The position numbers and the translations under genes were made by a program. Positions 2,778 through 50,472 of a stretch of 64,000 bases of DNA are shown here, one piece after another. Position 1 is the stretch's first letter, and each line of letters begins with the position of its first letter. Under the pieces are notes generated by a model. That model did not search any database, was not told where the DNA came from, and saw only the letters and a program-made list of their open reading frames with translations. Source of the stretch: Zhongshania sp. GTDB taxonomy: Bacteria; Pseudomonadota; Gammaproteobacteria; Pseudomonadales; Spongiibacteraceae. The stretch lies in assembly GCF_029212375.1 (NCBI RefSeq), contig NZ_JARGNU010000002.1, positions 348,260-412,259 on the forward strand. The letters run 5' to 3'.

Positions 2778-4697
2778 TCAGGCCGATGCGGGGGTTAAGG
2801 TGACCGCACAGCGTCCGTCCAAACTCGCGGAGAGCTGAAGGCGGCCATCGGCATCCGCTTGGTGTTGCGCGCTTTGCCCTGCAATCACGCAGTCGTAGCT
2901 GGCATTGGCTTGTAAGCGTTCGATAACAAACGTGATGTCGCGATTGCCATCGCCGGGATACAACACGAGCTCCAAATCTGCGCCGCTATGGCTAAAGGCC
3001 TTGGCGACAAGCACTTCTGGGTATTTGATGCCAGATAGAATCGGGCCTTTTAATGCAGATTCAGCGGGGCCTTTGAGTACCGAGTTGAGGTAGTCATTGG
3101 CGCCGAACATGAACGCACGGGCCAAGGTGGTGTTGGTCGAGCATGAGCCGGGGTAGACGGCCGTGCCGTTTTCAAATTTTGGCGGATACATTTCTTCAAG
3201 CAACTGCTCTGCGGTGTTTGCCGCTTCGGCATCGCCAAATTCTTTGGCGGCGGACAGCAGATTTTGAATATTGGCTTGCTGACCTTGGCTGTAGTTGCCC
3301 ATGTCAACGCCTTTGCCTTCGAGCTTAATTTTCAGTACGCCGTCTTCGCGATAGAACATCTCGGCGCGGGCCAGTGCCCAAGCTTCTTTGGCGCGCTGGT
3401 GATTGATGGGGTTGAAATACAATGCGCGGCCATCGTCAGCGAATGGGAATGGCACTGCGAAGCCAGTCAGGTTAGAACGCAGGGCGATAACGCTGCCGTC
3501 GGCTTGGGTGAATTCGGCGTCGAGCTGCTTAATAAACTGCGGATAAATATCTTTAAAATGGGTGGTGCCAAACAAGCGGTCGTAGAGCGCCAGTGCCTTC
3601 ATGCCCATAAAATTACAGGGCGTATAAACCCAGTTTGGCTCGCAGGGGTAGAGGCAGAAGGCCTGTTCGTTTTGGTTGTTAACAATCGAGCCAATGACGC
3701 TGTGAATGTCGTGCTTGTACTGTTTGTTATCGCTGTAGATAAAGGTCAGCGAGCCAGGTTCGGCGTAACGCATGTCGCCAGTGTTAGACATATACTGGCA
3801 AATTTGCAGGCCGAAAAAGCCGGTCAGCATGATATTGTCTTTGGCGCAGGGATCAAAATTGAAATTGAAATTGCCCCACATATTTTCCAGCGGCCAGTAA
3901 CCCCAAATTGGCTTTTGTAACATTTGCTCAATAAGGCGCTGCTGCGCTTCGTTTAAATAGCCGTGAAAGTTTGGTGTGTAGTGACACTGCATTTCGGCCA
4001 GCGCATAGCTAACGGTATTAATCTGGTAGCGCAGCGCTGAAGTTTGAAACTGGTCAATTTTGTTATAACCCTGAAATTGGCCAATAGGCTGTAGAGCGCG
4101 TTCATAAAGATAGCGTGCAGAGGCTAATTGTTTCTCGTCGAGTTCACGGCTGCCAGCGGCAGCTTCGGGAATGGCGCGGGCGTCGACATTACTCAATGCT
4201 TTTGCTAAATAGGCTTTGCGCTTTTCGCGGCGGGCAACGGCTTCGCTGAGTTGCTTGCGATTTTTGTAAATATCGCGGCCTTCGCGCAGGGCAACCAGTG
4301 CAAGAACTAGATGCGGAGCATACGGCCACACCACGGTGGTGTCGCCCATCATAAAGGCGGGAATGATGGCGCCTAATACCCAAACCGAAATGGGCGCGAG
4401 AATATTACCGGTACCAAACCACACTACTAGCGTTAGCCAGTACAGGCCGTAAAATACCGGAATCATTAATAGTGACCAGCCACCCATGGCAGCAAAACCA
4501 CCGCCCGGCCATAACAAGCCTAAGCCCGCGCTTTGCAGGGCAGGGGACAGGCCAAAGACACTGGGCAGTAAGCCGACAATCGCTATGGCAAGAAAGAATA
4601 ATTTGGTGCGTTTCAGTCGCGCTTTTGACAGTGGCCCAGCGCTGACCTCGCGATTAAAGCGCGGATCTTTTTCAATATTACTTAGGGCTTGGTCCAT
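2778..4697 (-). CDS. Membrane-anchored linalool dehydratase/isomerase (LinD)-like protein
   Basis: 639 residues. The first ~140 residues contain about four hydrophobic segments (roughly 32-50, 73-95, 98-116, 122-136), then a charged linker, then a domain (about 200-490) resembling the (alpha/alpha)6 linalool dehydratase/isomerase of Castellaniella defragrans. The best match is CEPNWVYTPCN (Cys352 and Cys361), which keeps the Cys-x8-Cys spacing of LinD's two active-site cysteines, followed by YDRLFGT; 'KDNIM' upstream also matches. The residue aligned with a LinD active-site His appears to be Phe294, and no counterpart of the N-terminal LinD Cys is evident. LinD hydrates or dehydrates and isomerises monoterpene alcohols, so a tertiary-alcohol lyase or isomerase role at the membrane is possible. 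ATG is preceded by GAGG. Family sure, substrate unknown. Confidence 0.8.
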   Translation of the reverse strand: MDQALSNIEKDPRFNREVSAGPLSKARLKRTKLFFLAIAIVGLLPSVFGLSPALQSAGLGLLWPGGGFAAMGGWSLLMIPVFYGLYWLTLVVWFGTGNILAPISVWVLGAIIPAFMMGDTTVVWPYAPHLVLALVALREGRDIYKNRKQLSEAVARREKRKAYLAKALSNVDARAIPEAAAGSRELDEKQLASARYLYERALQPIGQFQGYNKIDQFQTSALRYQINTVSYALAEMQCHYTPNFHGYLNEAQQRLIEQMLQKPIWGYWPLENMWGNFNFNFDPCAKDNIMLTGFFGLQICQYMSNTGDMRYAEPGSLTFIYSDNKQYKHDIHSVIGSIVNNQNEQAFCLYPCEPNWVYTPCNFMGMKALALYDRLFGTTHFKDIYPQFIKQLDAEFTQADGSVIALRSNLTGFAVPFPFADDGRALYFNPINHQRAKEAWALARAEMFYREDGVLKIKLEGKGVDMGNYSQGQQANIQNLLSAAKEFGDAEAANTAEQLLEEMYPPKFENGTAVYPGSCSTNTTLARAFMFGANDYLNSVLKGPAESALKGPILSGIKYPEVLVAKAFSHSGADLELVLYPGDGNRDITFVIERLQANASYDCVIAGQSAQHQADADGRLQLSASLDGRCAVTLTPASA

Positions 4698-18603: not shown

Positions 18604-18970
18604 TTAACGGTCTTTAATTGATCGATTAGGGGCTTGTGCTAAGCCCCTAATCTTAAGCCCCTAATCTTAAGCTCTACGCTTAGCTCTCAAAGCAATCCTC
18701 CTGTAGCAACCCCTCTGTAGCAACCCCAAAGCACAGCTCCCCCGAAAGCCTTGGCTAACACCGCAAAAGCAGGCATTAAAACGTTTTATCTGGCGCCGCT
18801 GCACCTGTCGATACTGGCTGTCGCCGCCTAAACCTTGTCTTAACATCATTTTAAGCCCCGTGATTCGAGTGCGCTTAATCATCTGCATCTTTACAACAAT
18901 TAAGTATTATGTATCAATATGTGAGACTAAATACTTAAATGTTTCATTTTGATATGTGAGAGGCTCTGCC
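18604..18970. promoter_or_regulatory. Spacer with operator-like inverted repeat before the P450-DUF3237 gene
   Basis: Apart from the hairpin at its left end and a short duplication (CTGTAGCAACCCC) near 18707-18730, this 367-bp spacer has no gene. TTAAGTATT (18900-18908) and AATACTTAA (18930-18938) form a perfect 9-bp inverted repeat around TGTATCAAT, and a 'GATATGTGAGA' half-repeat lies close to the start codon. It is likely the promoter and operator of the fusion gene, possibly bound by the neighbouring GntR or TetR protein. Confidence 0.45.
18624..18668. terminator. 12-bp hairpin with a duplicated arm after the GntR gene
   Basis: GATTAGGGGCTT (18624-18635) and AAGCCCCTAATC (18641-18652) form a perfect 12-bp stem with a 5-nt loop, 20 bp after the GntR stop. 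The right arm with two extra bases (AAGCCCCTAATCTT, 18641-18654) is repeated in tandem at 18655-18668, which permits an alternative longer-loop hairpin. There is no T-run after it, so termination would be weak or the hairpin serves another purpose. Confidence 0.5.
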
Positions 18971-20734
18971 ATGAGTAGTAATACCCTGAAGGTTGGTGAC
19001 GTCGACCTAGCTAATCCTGAAATTTTTGAAAAGGCTGTTCCCCACGAATACTTTGCGCTGCTGCGCAAGGAGGCGCCGATTACGTGGCAGCCGCAGCCAG
19101 ATGAGGAGAACGGCGGCTTTTGGAATATCACTCGCTATGCAGACATTGAAGAAATTGAAAAGAACGTTGAGGTTTTTACCAGCCGCTGCGATATCAGTCC
19201 GATGCCAGTGCCGCAGTCGACCTTAGAAAATACCATTGATCACTCGATTATTATGAGTGATCCACCGCGCCACACCTTTTTGCGTCAGGCGATAATGAAA
19301 GCCTTTACACCAAAGGCGATTAAAAAGCTTGAGGAGACGATACAAACCTGTGCGGTAGATGCGATGAACGCGATTATCGACAAGGGTGTGTGTGATCTCC
19401 ACGACATGGCAGCTTATACGCCGATTGAAGTGGTTGCGGAAATTCTTGGTGTGCCCGCCCACGACCGACAAAAATTGTTTGATTGGGCCAATGCCATGTT
19501 TGGCAGCAGCGACCCAGAGCTGTCTGATCCTCAACGCAATATGATGGGCGCGTTTCAGATGTTTTCCTATGCTCGCCGTTTGGGCATGGCCCGTCGGGCT
19601 AATCCTAGCGACGATGTATTTAGTATGCTTTCTGCTGCAGAGGAAGATGGCGAGCAGCTTAGTGACATCGACCTCGGTGCGACGTTTATCGTACTGGCCA
19701 CTGCGGGTAACGAGACGACGCGCACCCAATTTCTGCAGGGTGCGCTACTGCTCATTGAGCATCCTGAAGTGGCGGCGCAACTGCGGGAAGATCCCTCGCT
19801 GATGAATAATGCGGTAGAAGAAATGCTGCGCTTGACCACCCCAGCGATGTGTTTTGCACGGCGTGCGGCTCGGGATCATGTGGTTAATGGCCAGTTGATT
19901 CAGGCTGGTGAAAAAGTCTTGATGTGGTATGTCTCGGGCAATCGCGACGAGGCGGTATTTGACGATCCAAATACCTTTAATATCTTCCGCAAAAATGCCA
20001 ATAAACATTTATCCTTTGGCGCGACCGGGGCTATTCATCGCTGCTTGGGCGCGAATTTGGCCCGCACCGAATTGCGCGCCATGTTGCAGCAGCTGGTGAC
20101 CCGTCTGCCAGATGTACAGTTGGGTGGCAAGGTTGATCGTCTGCGCAGTAATTTCACCAACGGTATCAAGCGTATGCCGGTAAAATTCAGTAAAGCCGAG
20201 CCCACGGCAGATGCATCTCATGTCACAATGTATGCCTCCGGTTACGAGGCGGCCTTGAAACAGGGCGCCAATGCCGCCGAGCCAGAAGTGGTATTGCAGG
20301 CCAGTGAGGGGCACGGGATTGAGCTGGTGCATCTTGCCAAGGTGGTGTTGGAGCTTGGTGTACCGATCATTATTCCTGAAGGGCCGCGGGGTACTCGCTT
20401 GATGGTTGATGTTACTAAGGCGAGCTGGGATGGCGCGCGAATTAAAGCGCTTGGCGCGCCATGCCCGGCAGGGGATTGGGCGACGGTGAGTGCCGACGGC
20501 ACGCTGATGATTGATGTGCGGGCGACAATTGAGACCCATGACGGCGCGACCATTTTTATTAGCTACGAAGGGCGCTCGGATTATTCAAAAGGCGGTACGG
20601 CGCCGATTATTATTACGCCAAAGTTTGAAACGGCAGATCCACGCTATATGTGGCTAAACAAGGTGCAGGCGGTGGGGCGTGGTCATGCGGAAGGCATGAG
20701 TAAACTTATTTATGATGTTTACGAAGTTCGTTGA
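18971..20734 (+). CDS. Cytochrome P450 fused to a C-terminal DUF3237 domain
   Basis: 587 residues from ATG 18971 (GAGAGG 7 nt upstream). Residues about 1-408 are a soluble bacterial P450 of the CYP125/CYP142-like size: I-helix 'ATAGNETTR', K-helix EMLR, and haem ligand Cys near residue 358. The haem loop reads FGATGAIHRCLG, two residues longer between Phe and Cys than the usual FGxGxHxCxG. After a short linker, residues about 440-587 match DUF3237: 'EGPRGTRLMVDV', 'PAGDWATVSADGTLMIDVR' (in halves), 'THDGATIFISYEG', 'FETADPRYMWLN'. DUF3237 has no firm function but occurs with aromatic and steroid catabolism. The pair suggests oxidation coupled to handling of the product. No ferredoxin gene is nearby. 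Confidence 0.92.
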   Translation: MSSNTLKVGDVDLANPEIFEKAVPHEYFALLRKEAPITWQPQPDEENGGFWNITRYADIEEIEKNVEVFTSRCDISPMPVPQSTLENTIDHSIIMSDPPRHTFLRQAIMKAFTPKAIKKLEETIQTCAVDAMNAIIDKGVCDLHDMAAYTPIEVVAEILGVPAHDRQKLFDWANAMFGSSDPELSDPQRNMMGAFQMFSYARRLGMARRANPSDDVFSMLSAAEEDGEQLSDIDLGATFIVLATAGNETTRTQFLQGALLLIEHPEVAAQLREDPSLMNNAVEEMLRLTTPAMCFARRAARDHVVNGQLIQAGEKVLMWYVSGNRDEAVFDDPNTFNIFRKNANKHLSFGATGAIHRCLGANLARTELRAMLQQLVTRLPDVQLGGKVDRLRSNFTNGIKRMPVKFSKAEPTADASHVTMYASGYEAALKQGANAAEPEVVLQASEGHGIELVHLAKVVLELGVPIIIPEGPRGTRLMVDVTKASWDGARIKALGAPCPAGDWATVSADGTLMIDVRATIETHDGATIFISYEGRSDYSKGGTAPIIITPKFETADPRYMWLNKVQAVGRGHAEGMSKLIYDVYEVR

Positions 20735-43087: not shown

Positions 43088-43549
43088 TTAGCGCAGGGGT
43101 AAGGCGGTTTTGTAGCGCACTTGCTTTAAGGCGAAACTCGAACGAATTTTCTCTATTTCTGGCATTGGCGATAAGTTTTCAACAATAAAGCGTTCTAGTG
43201 ATTCCATGTCGGTCATGGCCAAGCGTATTAGATAGTCTGCGTCGCCGGTCATAAGGTAGCACTCCATTACTTCGTCATAGGCGCAAACCCGCGCTTCAAA
43301 ATCTTTGAGCGCTTGCCGGCTTTGTGCTTTAAGGCTAATGAAAACGAATACATTGAGGCGTAAGTCGAGTTGTTGTGGGTCTAATAAGGCCACGTACTGG
43401 CGAATGGTGCCCTCAGCTTCAAGTCGCTTTACGCGGGTTAGGCAGGGCGAGGGCGACAAATTGACTTTTTTGGCTAGCTCAGTGTTGGCCAGTTTGCCGT
43501 TGTTCTGTAGTTCACGCAAAATTTTGCGATCGATGTTGTCTAATTTCAT
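43088..43549 (-). CDS. Lrp/AsnC-family regulator
   Basis: About 153 residues from the ATG at 43549 (an ATG 15 nt upstream is also possible). Typical order: 'LDNIDRKILRELQNNGK' HTH with 'LSPSPCLTRVKRLEAEG', then the ligand-binding RAM domain with 'MTGDADYLIRLAM'. It is divergent from aceE, separated by about 130 bp, so it probably controls pyruvate dehydrogenase expression in response to an amino or keto acid, an arrangement also known for other aceE loci (PdhR there being GntR type). Confidence 0.93.
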   Translation of the reverse strand: MKLDNIDRKILRELQNNGKLANTELAKKVNLSPSPCLTRVKRLEAEGTIRQYVALLDPQQLDLRLNVFVFISLKAQSRQALKDFEARVCAYDEVMECYLMTGDADYLIRLAMTDMESLERFIVENLSPMPEIEKIRSSFALKQVRYKTALPLR

Positions 43550-43681
43550 ATAGAAGCTCTTCATGCTGTTAAATTATTATCTTGCGGCATATTGTGCCGT
43601 TTTGATCGTTTAATTGCAGCTAATGCGGTGAAAAAAACTGCCTTGTATCCACTACCATAGTTGTCAGGATGAACTGACGAT

Positions 43682-45514
43682 ATGGCGGATGAAATGAACA
43701 GTATTACCCAGCCTGAGCATAGCGATTTTGACCCAATTGAACTGACTGAATGGCGTGAAGCGTTTGTGGGGCTTGTGGCGCGCGGTGGCTCCGAGCGCGC
43801 GCGGCAGGTACTTGATGCCATTACGGCCATGGCTCGCGACCCTGCTATAGGCTGGCAACCAGCGCGGGGTACGCCTTATGTGAATACGGTAGTGGTTGAT
43901 CAGCAGCCGGTATTTCCAGGCGACCTTGCCGTTGAAGAAAAGCTTGTGTCGATTATGCGTTGGAATGCGCTGGCAATGGTGGCGCGGGCCAATAAGGCCT
44001 ACGGCGAATTGGGCGGCCATATTGCCAGCTACGCCAGTGCCGCTGATTTGTTTGAGGTTGGCTTTAACCACTTTTTTCACGCTCGCACAGATACCGTTGG
44101 TGGCGACCTTGTGTTCTACCAGCCGCATTCCGCGCCGGGTGTGTATGCCCGAGCATTTTTGGAAGGCCGCCTAGAAGAAGCCGATCTTGCCCATTACCGG
44201 CAAGAGGTTGGCGCCGGTCCAAGCGGCACTCGGGGTTTGTGCAGCTACCCTCATCCATGGCTAATGCCCGATTTTTGGCAATTTCCAACGGGGTCTATGG
44301 GGATCGGCCCGATCAGTTCAATCTACCAAGCGCGATTTATGCGCTACCTAATGCATCGCGGCTTGCTGGATACGACAGAGCGCAAAGTTTGGGGGGTATT
44401 TGGCGATGGCGAAATGGACGAACCCGAGAGTATGTCGGCGCTAACACTTGCCGCAAGGGAAGGTCTCGATAATTTGGTTTGGGTGGTTAATTGCAATTTG
44501 CAGCGCCTCGATGGGCCCGTTCGCGGTAATGGCCGTATTATTGACGAGCTCGAAGCCTTGTTCACCGGTGCTGGCTGGAACGTAATAAAATTAGTTTGGG
44601 GCTCGGATTGGGACGGCTTATTTGCCCGCGATAAAGACGGCGCCTTGGTCGATGCCTTTTCACACACTGTGGACGGTCAGTTTCAGACCTTTGCGGCAAA
44701 AGATGGACGTTATAATCGTGATCATTTCTTTGGTCAAAATGAAGCACTGGCAAAATTGGCGCAAGGCCTAAGCGACGAACAAATTGATCGCCTCAAGCGT
44801 GGCGGTCACGATTTAGTGAAAATATATGCCGCCTACGACGCGGCCGTGCGCCACAGTGGTAAGCCGACCGTTATTCTTGCCCAGACTAAAAAAGGCTTTG
44901 GCATGGGCGAGGCAGGCCAAGGCAAGATGACGACCCATCAACAGAAAAAACTAGATCGCGAGGCCTTAATCGATTTTCGCAATCGTTCTAACCTGCCGTT
45001 GTCCGACGACGATGCAGCGAACTTAAGTTTTTACAAGCCCGAGAAAAACAGCCCCGAAATGCGCTATTTGCACGAGCATCGTCAAATACTTGGCGGCTAT
45101 ATGCCGAGCCGTATTTCTGTTGCCGACCCTGTGGCGGTGCCCGCGCTATCAGTTTACGGCGGCTTTGCGCTGCAGGCAGATGGCAAAGAAATGTCTACCA
45201 CCATGGCCTTTGTGCGCATGATGACCAATTTGTTAAAAGACAAGCAGCTTGGCAAGCGCGTGGTGCCTATTGTGGCCGATGAAGCCCGCACCTTTGGTAT
45301 GGCGAATCTCTTTAAGCAGGTAGGCATTTATTCCAGTGCAGGGCAGTGCTATGAACCGGAGGATATCGGTTCTATTCTCAGTTATCGCGAAGCAAAGGAT
45401 GGCCAGATTCTTGAAGAAGGTATTAGCGAAGCTGGGGCAATCAGCTCGTGGGTGGCTGCGGCCACCAGCTATTCGGTGCATGGTATCCGAATGCTACCGT
45501 TTTATATTTACTAA
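43682..45514 (+). pseudogene. aceE: aceE 5' part: pyruvate dehydrogenase E1, interrupted by IS982
   Basis: 610 residues of homodimeric-type pyruvate dehydrogenase E1. ThDP motif 'GDGEMDEPESMSALTL' to 'VVNCN' (about 239-275), 'GFGMGEAGQGKMTTHQQ' active-site loop, and 'ILEEGISEAGAIS' with the cofactor-activating Glu. The frame stops at TAA (45512-45514) made by the insertion junction, after 'MLPFYIY'. The remaining ~285 residues (end of the pyrimidine domain and the C-terminal transketolase domain) continue at 46498 after the element. Joining the two across one copy of the duplication gives 'FYIYYSMFGFQ', as in intact AceE (about 895 residues in total). The product as it stands is expected to be inactive. 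Confidence 0.95.
45506..45513. repeat. Target-site duplication, left copy (ATTTACTA)
   Basis: ATTTACTA here is repeated exactly at 46486-46493 on the other side of the IS. An extra T at both junctions (45505 and 46485) means the duplication could be read as 9 bp if the element ends one base earlier. IS982-family elements make short direct repeats of variable length. Confidence 0.9.
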
Positions 45515-46485
45515 CCCGTGGTGCATTTAGGAAGGAGGTAAGTTACTCACCCTCATAAAGAGGTTATCATTAGTTTACGAGAAAAATGGTAACGAGATGA
45601 GTAACTTACACAGCGTTTATAGCAAAATTCTGTCTCTTTTGCACGAAATTGAGCCAGCCGATAATTTTTTGAATCAAATCAGAACACCTAAGCTAAGCGA
45701 TAAGGAGCTACTCGCGCTCAGTCTTGCAGCTGAAACACTGGGCATTGATTCAGAACACTTTTTGTTCAAACAGCTGCCTGCGTGCATCAATGGGAAAATT
45801 GAGCGCTCCGTTTATAACAGAAGAGCGCGAAGGTTGAGTTTTAAATTAGAAGAAATCAGAAGCGCTATTGTCACGCGATTAGATGTTGATAACGATATAA
45901 ATATTGTCGATAGCATGCCATTGGAAGTGTGTAAAATGAGTCGATCTAATCGCAGTAAAATTTGCCAAGAATTTGAATCTAGCTCGCCAGATTTTGGTTT
46001 TTGTGCAGCACAAAATATGCGCTACTTTGGCTATAAGTTACACGCGGTTTGCTCACCGAGTGGCGTGTTAAAAATGTACGATATATCAAAGGCTTCGGTT
46101 CATGACATCCATTACCTAAACGATATTGAAGGCCAGTTAAACAATTGTGTTTTGATTGGCGATAAAGGGTATTTGAGCAGAGTTTGGCAAGCAGATTTAT
46201 TTTCATCAAGTTGTATCAATTTGCAAACACCGATGCGAAAGAACCAGAAAGAGTTTAGAGACTTTCCGGCTAAATATCGTAAAGCCAGAAAGCGGATCGA
46301 AACATTGTTTTCACAACTTTGTGACCAGTTCATGATACGGCGGAATTATGCAAAATCGTTCAAGGGTATTTCGCGCAGAATTGTGACAAAGATAGCGTCC
46401 CTCACATTAATTCAATGGTTCAACCAACGTGAAGGGAATAAATTAAACAACCTGAAAGTGGTCATTTCCTAAATGCACCACGGGT
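45514..46485 (+). mobile_element. Complete IS982-family insertion sequence
   Basis: 972 bp, bounded by perfect inverted repeats ACCCGTGGTGCATTTAGGAA (45514-45533) and its complement (46466-46485), and by the 8-bp duplication ATTTACTA. Ends beginning ACCC, length near 1 kb and a single transposase ORF are typical of IS982. Both ends and the transposase look intact, so the element may still be mobile. It lies inside aceE in the same orientation as the gene. Confidence 0.95.
45597..46472 (+). CDS. IS982-family transposase
   Basis: 291 residues. DDE-type catalytic residues are in 'NIVDSMPLEVCKMSR' (first Asp), 'LIGDKGYLS' (second Asp) and 'RKRIETLFSQLCDQFMIRR' (Glu). 'YGYKLHAVC'-like sequence reads YFGYKLHAVCSPSGVL here, and 'ASVHDIHYLND' is the usual family block. 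Codon use is more AT-rich than aceE on either side, a sign of outside origin. The reading frame is complete and overlaps the right inverted repeat. Confidence 0.95.
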   Translation: MSNLHSVYSKILSLLHEIEPADNFLNQIRTPKLSDKELLALSLAAETLGIDSEHFLFKQLPACINGKIERSVYNRRARRLSFKLEEIRSAIVTRLDVDNDINIVDSMPLEVCKMSRSNRSKICQEFESSSPDFGFCAAQNMRYFGYKLHAVCSPSGVLKMYDISKASVHDIHYLNDIEGQLNNCVLIGDKGYLSRVWQADLFSSSCINLQTPMRKNQKEFRDFPAKYRKARKRIETLFSQLCDQFMIRRNYAKSFKGISRRIVTKIASLTLIQWFNQREGNKLNNLKVVIS

Positions 46486-46493
46486 ATTTACTA
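46486..46493. repeat. Target-site duplication, right copy (ATTTACTA)
   Basis: Second exact copy of ATTTACTA flanking the IS982 element. Only one of the two copies belongs to the original aceE codons ATT-TAC-TAC (I-Y-Y). Confidence 0.9.
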
Positions 46494-46497
46494 CTCA

Positions 46498-47361
46498 ATG
46501 TTTGGGTTTCAGCGTATTGGCGATCTCATTTGGGCGGCAGCCGATCAGCGCGCCCGTGGCTTTTTAATGGGCGCCACTGCGGGCAAAACAACCTTGGGCG
46601 GCGAAGGCTTGCAGCACCAAGATGGCCACAGCCACTTAATTGCGTCAACAGTGCCAAATTGCCGCGCTTACGATCCCGCTTTTGCGGGTGAACTCGCTGT
46701 TATTTTGGATCACGGCACTCGCCGTATGATGGAAGAAGACGAAGATGTTTTTTATTACATCACCGTGATGAATGAAAATTACGCACAGCCGAGTTTGCCT
46801 GCTGGAGTTGAGGATGCCGTACTTAAGGGTATGTACCGCTATGCGCTGCAAGATGTTGACGACGCGCAAGGTAAAGTTCGTCTGTTAGGGGCCGGAACCA
46901 TCTTATTGGAAGTGATCGCCGCCGGGCAGTTGCTTGCCGACGATTGGCAAATTGAAAGTGAGGTTTGGAGCGTAACCAGTTTTACTGAGTTAGCACGTGA
47001 GGCGCAGGGCATTGAGCGCAGCAACCGTCTTCATCCCCAAGACACTCAGCGCCGAAGCTATGTAACTGAGTGTTTGCGCGGTGAAGCGCCGGTGATTGTA
47101 GCCACCGATTATGTGCGTGCTCTGCCACAGATGATTGCTTCTTACATTGAGCCTAGCTACACGGTATTGGGAACTGATGGTTTTGGTCGCAGTGATACCC
47201 GCGCCGCGCTGCGTGGTTTCTTCGAAGTTGATCGCTACCATATAGTGTTGTCGGCATTGCACACTTTGGTACAGCGCGGTGATATTGCGGCAGATGTTTG
47301 TGCGCAGGCCATTGCTCGCTATGGCATTGATGTTGATGCCTCGCCGTCGTGGGAGGTGTGA
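46498..47361 (+). pseudogene. aceE: aceE 3' part: C-terminal fragment of pyruvate dehydrogenase E1
   Basis: 287 residues starting at the Met of 'YSMFGFQRIGDL', the continuation of the AceE sequence cut at 45513. It contains 'TTLGGEGLQHQDGHS' with the conserved His region, and the transketolase C-terminal domain ('LPQMIASYIEPSYTVLGTDGFGRSDTRAALR', in parts). No Shine-Dalgarno is visible before the ATG, which is 12 bp from the IS end, so translation from here is uncertain. The two ORFs might complement each other as split halves if both are made, but this is unlikely. Confidence 0.93.
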
Positions 47362-47362
47362 T

Positions 47363-48697
47363 ATGAGTAATGTGCTGGAAGTGAAAGTGCCGGATATTGG
47401 TGGCACTGCGAATGTGGAAGTTATTGAAGTGCTGGTGAAGGTTGGCGATACAGTTGCGGTCGATCAAGGCCTCATTACACTGGAAACAGATAAAGCAACC
47501 ATGGAAATTCCCTCGCCGCAGGCGGGGGTGATTAAAGAGCTAAAGGTTTGCGAGGGTGACACCGTTAGCGAAGGGAGTTTAATTGTGGTGTTGGACGCCG
47601 CGTCGACCGAGCTCACAGTTTCTGCGCAGGAGAACGTCGAGGCTCGCGTAGCGAAAATAGAGAACGCTGACGCGGCGCCTATTTCTGCGGTTACAGCGCT
47701 AAGGGCGACCGCAAGCGCTGTGGCACCCACGCCCACACCCGCAAAACTAGCAACTTCGCCATCGCAACTTGCCGAAACAAATTTGCTCTACGCATCGCCA
47801 TCGGTTCGCGCACTGGCAAGGGAACTTGGTGTCGATTTAAGCCAAGTGCAGGGCAGTGCAAGTAAGGGCCGAATTACCCTCGCCGATGTGCAAAGCTTTG
47901 TGAAATCACAGCTCAGCGCCATCGCTTCGGGTGGGCCGGTGGTTGGCAGCGGCGCGCTTGCCAATATCTTGCCGTGGCCGCAGGTGGACTTTGCCAAGTT
48001 TGGCCCAGTCGAGCGTCGGCCGCTGTCGCGCATTCGCAAGATCAGCGGCGCAAATTTGCATCGTAACTGGGTGAGTATTCCGCATGTTACCAATCACGAA
48101 GATGCAGATATCACTGAGCTTGAAGCTTTTCGCGTGCAGCTTAATAAAGAGCAGGAAAAAGCCAAAACCGGCACCAAGGTGACTCTGCTTGCACTGCTTA
48201 TTAAGACTTGTGTGGCGGCGCTTAAACAGTTCCCAGATTTTAATGCTAGCCTCGACGGCGACGACCTCATTTTAAAGAGTTATTACCATATTGGCTTTGC
48301 TGCCGACACCCCCAACGGTTTGGTGGTGCCGGTAATCCGCGACGCTGACAAAAAGGGCATTTTGGAGATTGCCGCCGAAATGAGCGCCTTGTCGGCAAAG
48401 GCCCGCGACGGCAAGTTGAGCGCGGCGGAAATGAGTGGCGGTTGTTTCTCTATCTCTTCGCTGGGTGGCATTGGCGGCACCTATTTTACCCCCATAATTA
48501 ATGCCCCCGAAGTGGCCATTTTAGGCGTGTCTAAATCCCGTTATCAAATGATTTGGAACGGTCGCGAGGCCGAACCGCGGTTGATATTACCGCTCAGTCT
48601 TAGCTGGGATCACCGCGCGGTTGATGGCGCCATGGCGGGGCGCTTTAACGCGTATCTCGCTGCGGTATTAGCTGATTTTCGCCGAGTTTTGTTATAG
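47363..48697 (+). CDS. aceF: Dihydrolipoamide acetyltransferase (PDH E2)
   Basis: About 444 residues from ATG 47363, directly after the aceE stop (GGGAGG upstream); a longer frame from 47279 overlaps aceE. One lipoyl domain (Lys in 'ETDKATMEIPSP', about 35-47), a linker, a peripheral-subunit-binding domain ('ASPSVRALARELGVDLS', 'GRITLADV'), and the catalytic acetyltransferase domain ending 'SWDHRAVDGAMAGRF' with the His-x3-Asp-Gly motif. It transfers acetyl to CoA in the pyruvate dehydrogenase complex. Expression may be affected by the upstream IS. Confidence 0.96.
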   Translation: MSNVLEVKVPDIGGTANVEVIEVLVKVGDTVAVDQGLITLETDKATMEIPSPQAGVIKELKVCEGDTVSEGSLIVVLDAASTELTVSAQENVEARVAKIENADAAPISAVTALRATASAVAPTPTPAKLATSPSQLAETNLLYASPSVRALARELGVDLSQVQGSASKGRITLADVQSFVKSQLSAIASGGPVVGSGALANILPWPQVDFAKFGPVERRPLSRIRKISGANLHRNWVSIPHVTNHEDADITELEAFRVQLNKEQEKAKTGTKVTLLALLIKTCVAALKQFPDFNASLDGDDLILKSYYHIGFAADTPNGLVVPVIRDADKKGILEIAAEMSALSAKARDGKLSAAEMSGGCFSISSLGGIGGTYFTPIINAPEVAILGVSKSRYQMIWNGREAEPRLILPLSLSWDHRAVDGAMAGRFNAYLAAVLADFRRVLL

Positions 48698-48708
48698 GGA
48701 ATTGCACA

Positions 48709-50472
48709 ATGATAGAAATTAGAGTCCCCGATATTGGTGGCGCCAACGGCGTTGAGGTCATTGAGATATTGGTGAGTATGGGCGATCACGTTGAGGCTGA
48801 GCAGGGCTTAATTACCCTAGAAACCGACAAGGCGACTATGGAAATTCCCTCACCTAGGGCTGGGGTAGTTGGCGAACTCACCGTAAAGATAGGTGATAAA
48901 GTCAGCGCAGGCGCCTTGATTGCGGTACTAAAAAATTCAGTGCAAGCTGAGGCCGCCCAAACAATCGCCACTAAGACATCTGCGCCTGATCTAGTACCGC
49001 AAACAGGATCTGGCGCTTCGATTCGCTCTAGTCAAGCTGATGAAATTTGGTGTGATGTTCTAGTATTAGGTGCTGGCCCTGGTGGTTACTCCGCAGCGTT
49101 TCGCGCTGCCGACCTTGGCGCTAAGGTGGTTATGGTTGAGCGCTACGCAAGCTTGGGTGGGGTATGCCTAAACGTTGGTTGCATTCCCTCAAAGGCGTTG
49201 TTGCATGTTGCCGCGGTGATGGACGAGACCAAACATTTTGCAGGCGTTGGCGTGAACTTCGCTGCACCAGCGGTGGACCTAACCAAATTGCGCAGCCACA
49301 AAGAAGCGGTTGTGGGTAAGCTAACCGGCGGCCTAGCTGCTATGGCTAATATGCGTGGTGTTAGCGTGCTCAATGGAAACGCATATTTCATTGATAGTCA
49401 GCGGCTGCAAGTGAACGATGGTGAGAAAGGGCGGGTGGTGCATTTTAAGCGCGCAATTATCGCTGCTGGTTCTCAAGCGCAGCGGCTGCCGTTTTTACCT
49501 GATGATCCGCGTATTATCGATTCGACAGGGGCGCTTGAATTGCCCTTGGTGCCCAAGCGCATGCTTATAATTGGTGGCGGTATTATTGGCCTTGAAATGG
49601 CCACGGTTTACGCTGCTCTTGGCGCGCGTATTGATGTTGTCGAAATGATTGATAGCCTGATACCTAGCGCAGATCGTGACTTAGTGAACGTGTGGCAAAA
49701 ATACAATAGCGCCCGCTTCGATAAGCTTATGCTCGGCACTCGCACCGTTAGTGCAGAGGCTACGAGTCAAGGTATTCGCGTAGCGTTTGCCGGCGCCAAT
49801 GCCCCAAGTGAACCGCAAATGTACGACTTGGTGCTTGAGGCCGTGGGGCGTGAGCCCAATGGTAAACGCATCGGTGCCGAGCACGCTGGCGTCGCCGTTG
49901 ACGAGCGCGGCTTTATTTCGGTGGATCGGCAAATGCGAACCAATGTGCCGCATATATTTGCGGTCGGCGATATCGTTGGTCAGCCCATGTTGGCGCACAA
50001 AGCCGTACACGAAGCCCACGTCGCTGCTGAAGTGGCAGTGGGTGAGCTGATTGCCGATGCGCGGTTGACGCGCGCGGCATTTGAGCCCCGTGTAATTCCC
50101 AGCGTTGCGTACACCAACCCAGAAATTGCGTGGGTGGGCCTAAGCGAAGCCCAGGCGAAAGCAGAGAATCGCCAGTATAAGAAAGGTCTCTTCCCCTGGC
50201 GAGCGTCGGGACGCGCCATTGCTAATGGCCGTGACGAGGGTTTTACCAAGCTGCTGTTCGATGCTGAAACCGGTCAAATTGTGGGTGGTGGCATTGTTGG
50301 CACTGGTGCGGGTGACCTTATTAGCGAAGTGGCTTTGGCGATAGAAATGGGTGCGGACCAAGTGGATATTGCTAAAACCATTCACCCGCATCCAACCTTG
50401 GGTGAAAGTGTTGGTCTAGCGGCGGAAGCGGCACACGGAATCTGTACCGACCTTCCTCCTGTAAGGCATTAA
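48709..50472 (+). CDS. lpd: Dihydrolipoamide dehydrogenase (PDH E3) with N-terminal lipoyl domain
   Basis: 587 residues, about 115 longer than a plain E3. Residues about 1-78 are a lipoyl domain (Lys in 'ETDKATMEIPSP', nearly identical to the aceF one); after a linker the FAD domain begins ('LVLGAGPGGYSAAFRAADLG') with the redox pair in 'GGVCLNVGCIPSK'. NAD domain 'IIGGGIIGLEMATVYAALG' and the dimer domain with 'HPHPTLGESV' (active-site His-Glu) follow. This lipoyl-E3 arrangement is known from Neisseria and some other proteobacteria. It sits 11 bp after aceF. Confidence 0.96.
   Translation: MIEIRVPDIGGANGVEVIEILVSMGDHVEAEQGLITLETDKATMEIPSPRAGVVGELTVKIGDKVSAGALIAVLKNSVQAEAAQTIATKTSAPDLVPQTGSGASIRSSQADEIWCDVLVLGAGPGGYSAAFRAADLGAKVVMVERYASLGGVCLNVGCIPSKALLHVAAVMDETKHFAGVGVNFAAPAVDLTKLRSHKEAVVGKLTGGLAAMANMRGVSVLNGNAYFIDSQRLQVNDGEKGRVVHFKRAIIAAGSQAQRLPFLPDDPRIIDSTGALELPLVPKRMLIIGGGIIGLEMATVYAALGARIDVVEMIDSLIPSADRDLVNVWQKYNSARFDKLMLGTRTVSAEATSQGIRVAFAGANAPSEPQMYDLVLEAVGREPNGKRIGAEHAGVAVDERGFISVDRQMRTNVPHIFAVGDIVGQPMLAHKAVHEAHVAAEVAVGELIADARLTRAAFEPRVIPSVAYTNPEIAWVGLSEAQAKAENRQYKKGLFPWRASGRAIANGRDEGFTKLLFDAETGQIVGGGIVGTGAGDLISEVALAIEMGADQVDIAKTIHPHPTLGESVGLAAEAAHGICTDLPPVRH

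Follow-up and report, generated by a model that had tools for sequence, protein, structure and literature searches.

An IS982-family insertion in the E1 gene of a putative accessory, MdeB-type 2-oxoacid dehydrogenase operon of Zhongshania sp.

Known E1 enzymes and IS982 elements

Two types of E1 component are relevant to the locus described here. One is AceE, the housekeeping pyruvate dehydrogenase E1, for which the E. coli E1p (PDB 1l8a) serves as the reference. The other is the type recognized by TIGR03186 (AKGDH_not_PDH), an NCBIfam exception model that we take to be linked to mdeB of P. putida. MdeB of P. putida prefers 2-oxobutyrate (alpha-ketobutyrate). The NCBIfam name of TIGR03186 is alpha-ketoglutarate dehydrogenase, as against the gene name mdeB in RefSeq plasmid records; this product name may be an error propagated by annotation, since MdeB is an enzyme acting on alpha-ketobutyrate.

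The mde operon used for comparison was drawn from PMC8707732, PMC10256816 and PMC3918161. According to the first of these, MdeR of P. putida is an Lrp-type regulator that is divergently transcribed and altered by L-methionine, and PMC10256816 places aceE/mdeB and mdeA of P. donghuensis under methionine catabolism. IS982-family elements are described in PMC7335449 as 845–1282 bp long, with inverted ends of 11–32 bp that start with AC and follow the consensus AC(N)6T(N)5TT, and with direct repeats of 2–10 bp. The DDE triad of the family is atypical in lacking the customary K/R. A literature search at title level for an insertion-broken second aceE returned no paper on that subject.

The window analysed is a stretch of 64,000 nucleotides from Zhongshania sp. 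It is highly probable (roughly 0.88) that a recent IS982-family insertion broke the E1 gene of an accessory MdeB-type operon in this stretch, and that the housekeeping pyruvate dehydrogenase genes are intact elsewhere in the genome.

The interrupted gene and the inserted element

The E1 gene at 43682-47361 is split in two by a 972-bp insertion of the IS982 family (45514-46485, plus strand). The features of the interrupted gene are as follows.

43682..45514, plus strand: 5' piece of E1, 610 aa, ending at a TAA made by the insertion (open reading frames; 1096.8 bits on TIGR03186 versus 935.2 on aceE)
45506..45513, no strand: left copy of the 8-bp target duplication, ATTTACTA (sequence and repeat listing)
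45514..46485, plus strand: IS982-family insertion sequence with perfect 20-nt inverted ends, one copy in the genome
45514..45533, plus strand: left inverted repeat (repeat analysis)
45597..46472, plus strand: transposase, 291 aa (NF033520 223.9 bits, cut-off 130; Pfam DDE_Tnp_1)
46466..46485, minus strand: right inverted repeat (repeat analysis)
46486..46493, no strand: right copy of the target duplication, ATTTACTA (sequence and repeat listing)
46494..47361, plus strand: 3' remainder of E1, first ATG at 46498, 287 aa (open reading frames and profiles; aligns with E. coli E1p 601-880)

The two inverted ends are complementary over all of their 20 nt. The transposase frame is complete and stop-free over its 291 aa, and its score on NF033520, well above the cut-off, supports the family named in the preliminary description. 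The length, the AC-starting ends and the 8-bp duplication all lie within the family ranges given in PMC7335449. Compared with the end consensus of the family, the AC, T9 and T15 agree, whereas position 16 is an A instead of the second T. The nearest transposases in the plasmid collection, those of a Bacteroides fragilis element and of ISRa1 of Riemerella, are 54-56% identical. All 933 matching records in this collection are below 60% identity, and comparison with them did not identify the element as a named IS982 member.

The target of the duplication is AT-rich. The repeat listing gives the duplication as 9 nt (TATTTACTA, 45505-45513 and 46485-46493) because a T precedes the left copy and a T also ends the element. 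By simple arithmetic, an exact 8-bp repeat at both ends of the element would occur by chance with a probability of about 4^-8. When the flanks are joined after removal of the element and one repeat, a single frame of 2700 nt is obtained, which consists of 899 codons and a stop, reads FYIYYSMFG across the joint and contains no other interruption. The TAA that ends the 5' piece arises at the junction with the element. The preliminary description of this structure (a 972-bp element with perfect 20-bp ends, a complete transposase and an 8-bp duplication, and flanks that rejoin in frame as FYIY-YSMFG) is therefore exact in every detail. The two parts of E1 were found exactly 6 nt (two codons) apart in 82/82 related loci, which means that E1 is uninterrupted there; none of the 82 carries an interrupted E1, although these loci were picked by their match to E1, a choice that favours intact genes.

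As the genome is a draft of 29 contigs, the element could have been misplaced into the gene during assembly. However, its ends are exact, the duplication is exact on both sides, and this single copy lies deep inside a contig of 448,933 bases, unlike the 14 inspected copies of the congener G016, all of which are at contig ends. An assembly artefact is considered very unlikely on these grounds.

Identity of the interrupted E1 and its operon

TIGR03186 is the better model for both pieces of the gene (5' piece: 1096.8 bits, versus 935.2 on the aceE model TIGR00759; 3' piece: 436.1 versus 432.9). Neither piece reaches the TIGR03186 cut-off of 1408.3 alone; the addition of the separately scored pieces gives 1532.9, and the intact relatives L004, L077, L081, L129 and L130 pass the cut-off. 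The summed aceE scores (935.2 + 432.9) are also above the aceE cut-off of 859.9, and the 3' piece barely separates the two models. Support for a paralog consequently comes from the score of the 5' piece, from TIGR03186 being an exception model and from the tree.

The FastTree tree, built from the 5' part of 122 E1 rows and rooted at its midpoint, has one side of 37 rows and another of 85. The 37 hold the genome's own aceE and the aceE of its congeners, and the 85 hold the window E1, 80 related loci (the best 80 of 592 matches) and the E1s of the genomes G028 and G034. The window E1 belongs to a set of eight with a local support of 98, six of the other members being labelled Pseudomonas. It is thus placed in the clade of the TIGR03186/MdeB-type enzymes, apart from the housekeeping aceE of the genus. 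The window pieces align with E. coli E1p over residues 6-598 and 601-880, but the 5' piece is only 51% identical to the genome's own aceE and falls in the other clade. The plasmid collection contains 215 records that match; among the 40 listed, 24 are called mdeB (alpha-ketoglutarate dehydrogenase), three aceE, and 13 are nameless. Judged by the models and the tree, the broken gene is a TIGR03186/MdeB-type paralog and not the housekeeping pyruvate dehydrogenase E1 of the cell, as which it had been described.

The gene is flanked by the following features.

43088..43564, minus strand: Lrp/AsnC-family regulator, divergent from E1, in an MdeR-like position (Pfam AsnC_trans_reg, HTH_AsnC-type; same arrangement in 53/80 related loci)
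47363..48697, plus strand: E2 dihydrolipoyl acyltransferase, 444 aa (TIGR01348 596.9 bits, cut-off 552.1; start context)
48709..50472, plus strand: E3, a 587-aa dihydrolipoyl dehydrogenase that carries a lipoyl domain at its N-terminus (TIGR01350 465.9 bits, cut-off 408.8; Biotin_lipoyl at residues 3-74)

The best NCBIfam match of the regulator is Lrp PRK11169, at 141.8 bits below the cut-off of 233. The ATG of E2 lies one base past the E1 stop, and the TIGR01348 scan of E2 began at the upstream GTG 47279. The N-terminal lipoyl domain of E3 shares 67% identity with the corresponding domain of the adjoining E2. Among the best 80 of the 592 E1 matches, a divergent Lrp gene lies no more than 400 nt from the E1 match in at least 53 loci, an E2 match of more than 300 aa is found in at least three and an E3 match of more than 400 aa in at least one; these counts are lower bounds, since short loci and loci truncated at contig ends are among the 80.

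The divergent Lrp-family regulator, the best model for both pieces and the paralog clade are features shared with the MdeB-type E1 of P. putida. The locus differs from it in that E2 and E3 are part of the operon, E1 is broken and mdeA is missing from the gap between the regulator and E1. Furthermore, no methionine gamma-lyase above the cut-off was found in the genome (best 403.1 bits versus 549.7). Since regulator, mdeA and mdeB do not occur together, the regulator being present only without mdeA, the window E1 was filed as MdeB-type and not as part of an mde operon. In the related locus L081, a reading of the sequences places E1 among genes that do not resemble methionine catabolism. A conserved neighbour that could name the substrate was not found in a crude test at the level of open reading frames, in which, E1 aside, only a mixed cluster spanning 50 loci, where antisense frames hide the regulator, exceeded 12 of the 80 loci. 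By analogy with MdeB, the lost activity may have been the oxidation of another 2-oxo acid, perhaps 2-oxobutyrate.

Two other genes of the window are worth recording. The frame at 2778-4697 (minus strand) encodes a protein with a linalool dehydratase/isomerase domain (Pfam Ldi, 283.7 bits); it has no NCBIfam match at 0.001 and adjoins CoA-ligase, thiolase-like and dehydratase-like genes. The 592-aa frame at 18956-20734 (plus strand) combines a cytochrome P450 in its first part with a DUF3237 in its last part, an unusual fusion.

Consequences and origin of the insertion

The preliminary description had concluded that the cell must lack this pyruvate dehydrogenase activity, use another route or be a mixed population. 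Of the routes it listed, a second aceE proved to be the right one. A second E1 was found in the same genome at G000:C1:241119-243749, open over 887 aa, which scores 1443.3 bits on the aceE model against 1266.3 on TIGR03186, the reverse of the window pieces, and which groups with the aceE of the congeners in the tree. An aceF-like open frame adjoins it, and another dihydrolipoyl dehydrogenase gene (lpd) is present on contig C13 (526.4 bits, cut-off 408.8). Pyruvate oxidation would be carried by these separate genes. A loss of pyruvate dehydrogenase in this cell was therefore rejected, as there is no missing enzyme to explain, and a diet of lipid and terpenoid acyl-CoAs, which had been suggested to make such a loss tolerable, is not needed. 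It is still true that the summed pieces exceed the aceE cut-off and that E2 and E3 directly downstream resemble a pyruvate dehydrogenase operon, as would be expected if the insertion had broken the main enzyme and the cell lived by another route to acetyl-CoA. The opposite scores of the intact aceE already contradict this explanation, as do its clustering with the congeners' aceE and the presence of the aceF-like frame and the other lpd, which makes it very unlikely. The genome also contains a lipoamide-dehydrogenase-like locus (L153, G000:C9:63726-65099), 32% identical to the window E3 and with three internal stops (one TGA, two TAG), probably a pseudogene or a frame-shifted paralog.

The element introduces a stop behind residue 610; this point lies within the middle domain and corresponds to residues 598/599 of E. 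coli E1p. The 5' piece aligns with E1p through residue 598 and the 3' frame from 601; Tyr599 of E1p is presumably an active-site residue. As the break splits the Pfam middle domain into 18-129 and 132-229 of 229, a working two-part E1 is unlikely, and neither piece is expected to yield an active enzyme. The remaining sequence shows little decay. No otherwise invariant column is broken by the window E1 in either piece, but this test is weak because the same holds for 59/83 and 66/76 rows (window E1 included). In columns conserved to at least 97%, the window E1 departs once in the 5' piece and never in the 3' piece (both medians 0). With the threshold lowered to 90%, it departs twice in each, against medians of 3 and 1, and ranks 48th of 83 and 24th of 76. 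The window E1 looks like an ordinary member of its type, which fits a recent insertion, and the absence of decay is weakly informative.

Alternatively, E2 and the lipoylated E3 could still be used together with another E1, either because the insertion is non-polar or because it brings in a promoter. The transposase is co-directional with the operon, the E2 and E3 frames are open, no terminator-like site is listed inside the element, and IS1187, a member of the IS982 family, is reported in PMC7335449 to supply a promoter. However, the scan for sigma-70-like sites gave one weak match inside the element (45638-45665, 9/12) and none near its right end, with two sites in the scanned stretch compared with 5.1 in shuffles. 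Neither the promoter nor the terminator scan rose above its shuffles. With one weak internal match only, an outward promoter of this type at the right end was rejected, and this explanation is considered improbable.

The element occurs once in its own genome. Four of the 21 genomes of the family match it, namely its own, G016 (16 copies), and G003 and G005 (fragments). The 14 G016 copies that were inspected each differ at two positions in 972 bp (99.79% identity). No single one of them shows both flanks because each is at a contig end. Comparison of the 14 flanks gave five pairs with 8 bp (AAGTACTT, ATATTTAT, TATACATA) or 7 bp (TTTATAA, ACATATA) in common, and four flanks are without a partner. 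On this pattern, the element is mobile and makes duplications of 7–8 bp in AT-rich targets. Between the two species, aceE is only 82.2% identical, which indicates that the element crossed species recently. Together with the exact duplication and ends, this bears out the earlier suggestion of a recent insertion. The element probably arrived from another species of the genus, although transfer in the opposite direction would also fit and G016 is one sampled genome.

The distribution of the E1 type was examined in 57 genomes (its own, 17 of the same genus, three of the same family and 36 of the same order). A full-length match above the TIGR03186 cut-off was found in two of them, G028 and G034, which share only the order, while the window gene itself was scored in pieces. 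None of the 17 congeners has such a match, and the extra E1s of the congeners G005, G016 and G015 are on the other side of the tree from the window E1. With a strict threshold (E <= 1e-300) that overlooks relatives such as the E1 of G034, a protein search found two of 293 genomes of the order, its own and G028 (77%). The nearest loci among the best 80 of 592 are 82% identical. A tRNA-bounded island was not recognized, as ARAGORN found no tRNA in the window. Horizontal gain of the accessory operon is the simplest reading of this distribution, with loss in the sampled congeners as the alternative. A further proposal is that the newly gained E1-E2-E3 operon was silenced in E1 alone by an element spreading through the genus, and that E2 and the lipoyl-bearing E3 could serve other 2-oxoacid dehydrogenases, a gain followed by partial domestication through transposition; this is considered very unlikely.

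Other E1 genes were encountered in the genomes compared. G016 and G005 contain a second aceE-like gene with an adjoining E2 (L126 and L127), near-identical mutually and apart from their own housekeeping aceE, the L126 copy scoring as aceE (1417.5 bits). A third, divergent E1 type was found in G015 and G043 (L128 and L131), on its own long branch of 0.74 changes per column, and in G015 it is followed by an E2.

Taken together, it is most likely that a mobile element shared across species inactivated an accessory operon. An IS982-family element would have transposed into the E1 of an MdeB/TIGR03186-type accessory operon for a 2-oxoacid dehydrogenase (E1-E2-E3) that is linked to an Lrp regulator. 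The insertion duplicated 8 bp of its AT-rich target and placed a stop after residue 610. The operon would be inactivated through the break in E1, and the separate aceE, aceF-like and lpd genes would keep pyruvate oxidation going. The insertion is a case of ordinary gene loss, and central metabolism has not failed. An interrupted 'aceE' does not necessarily imply that a central pathway is broken, and the use of the right profile together with a search of the whole genome can reverse the physiological conclusion. TIGR03186 enzymes are frequent on plasmids, as the matching records indicate, and the element marks a recent transfer from one species of the genus to another.
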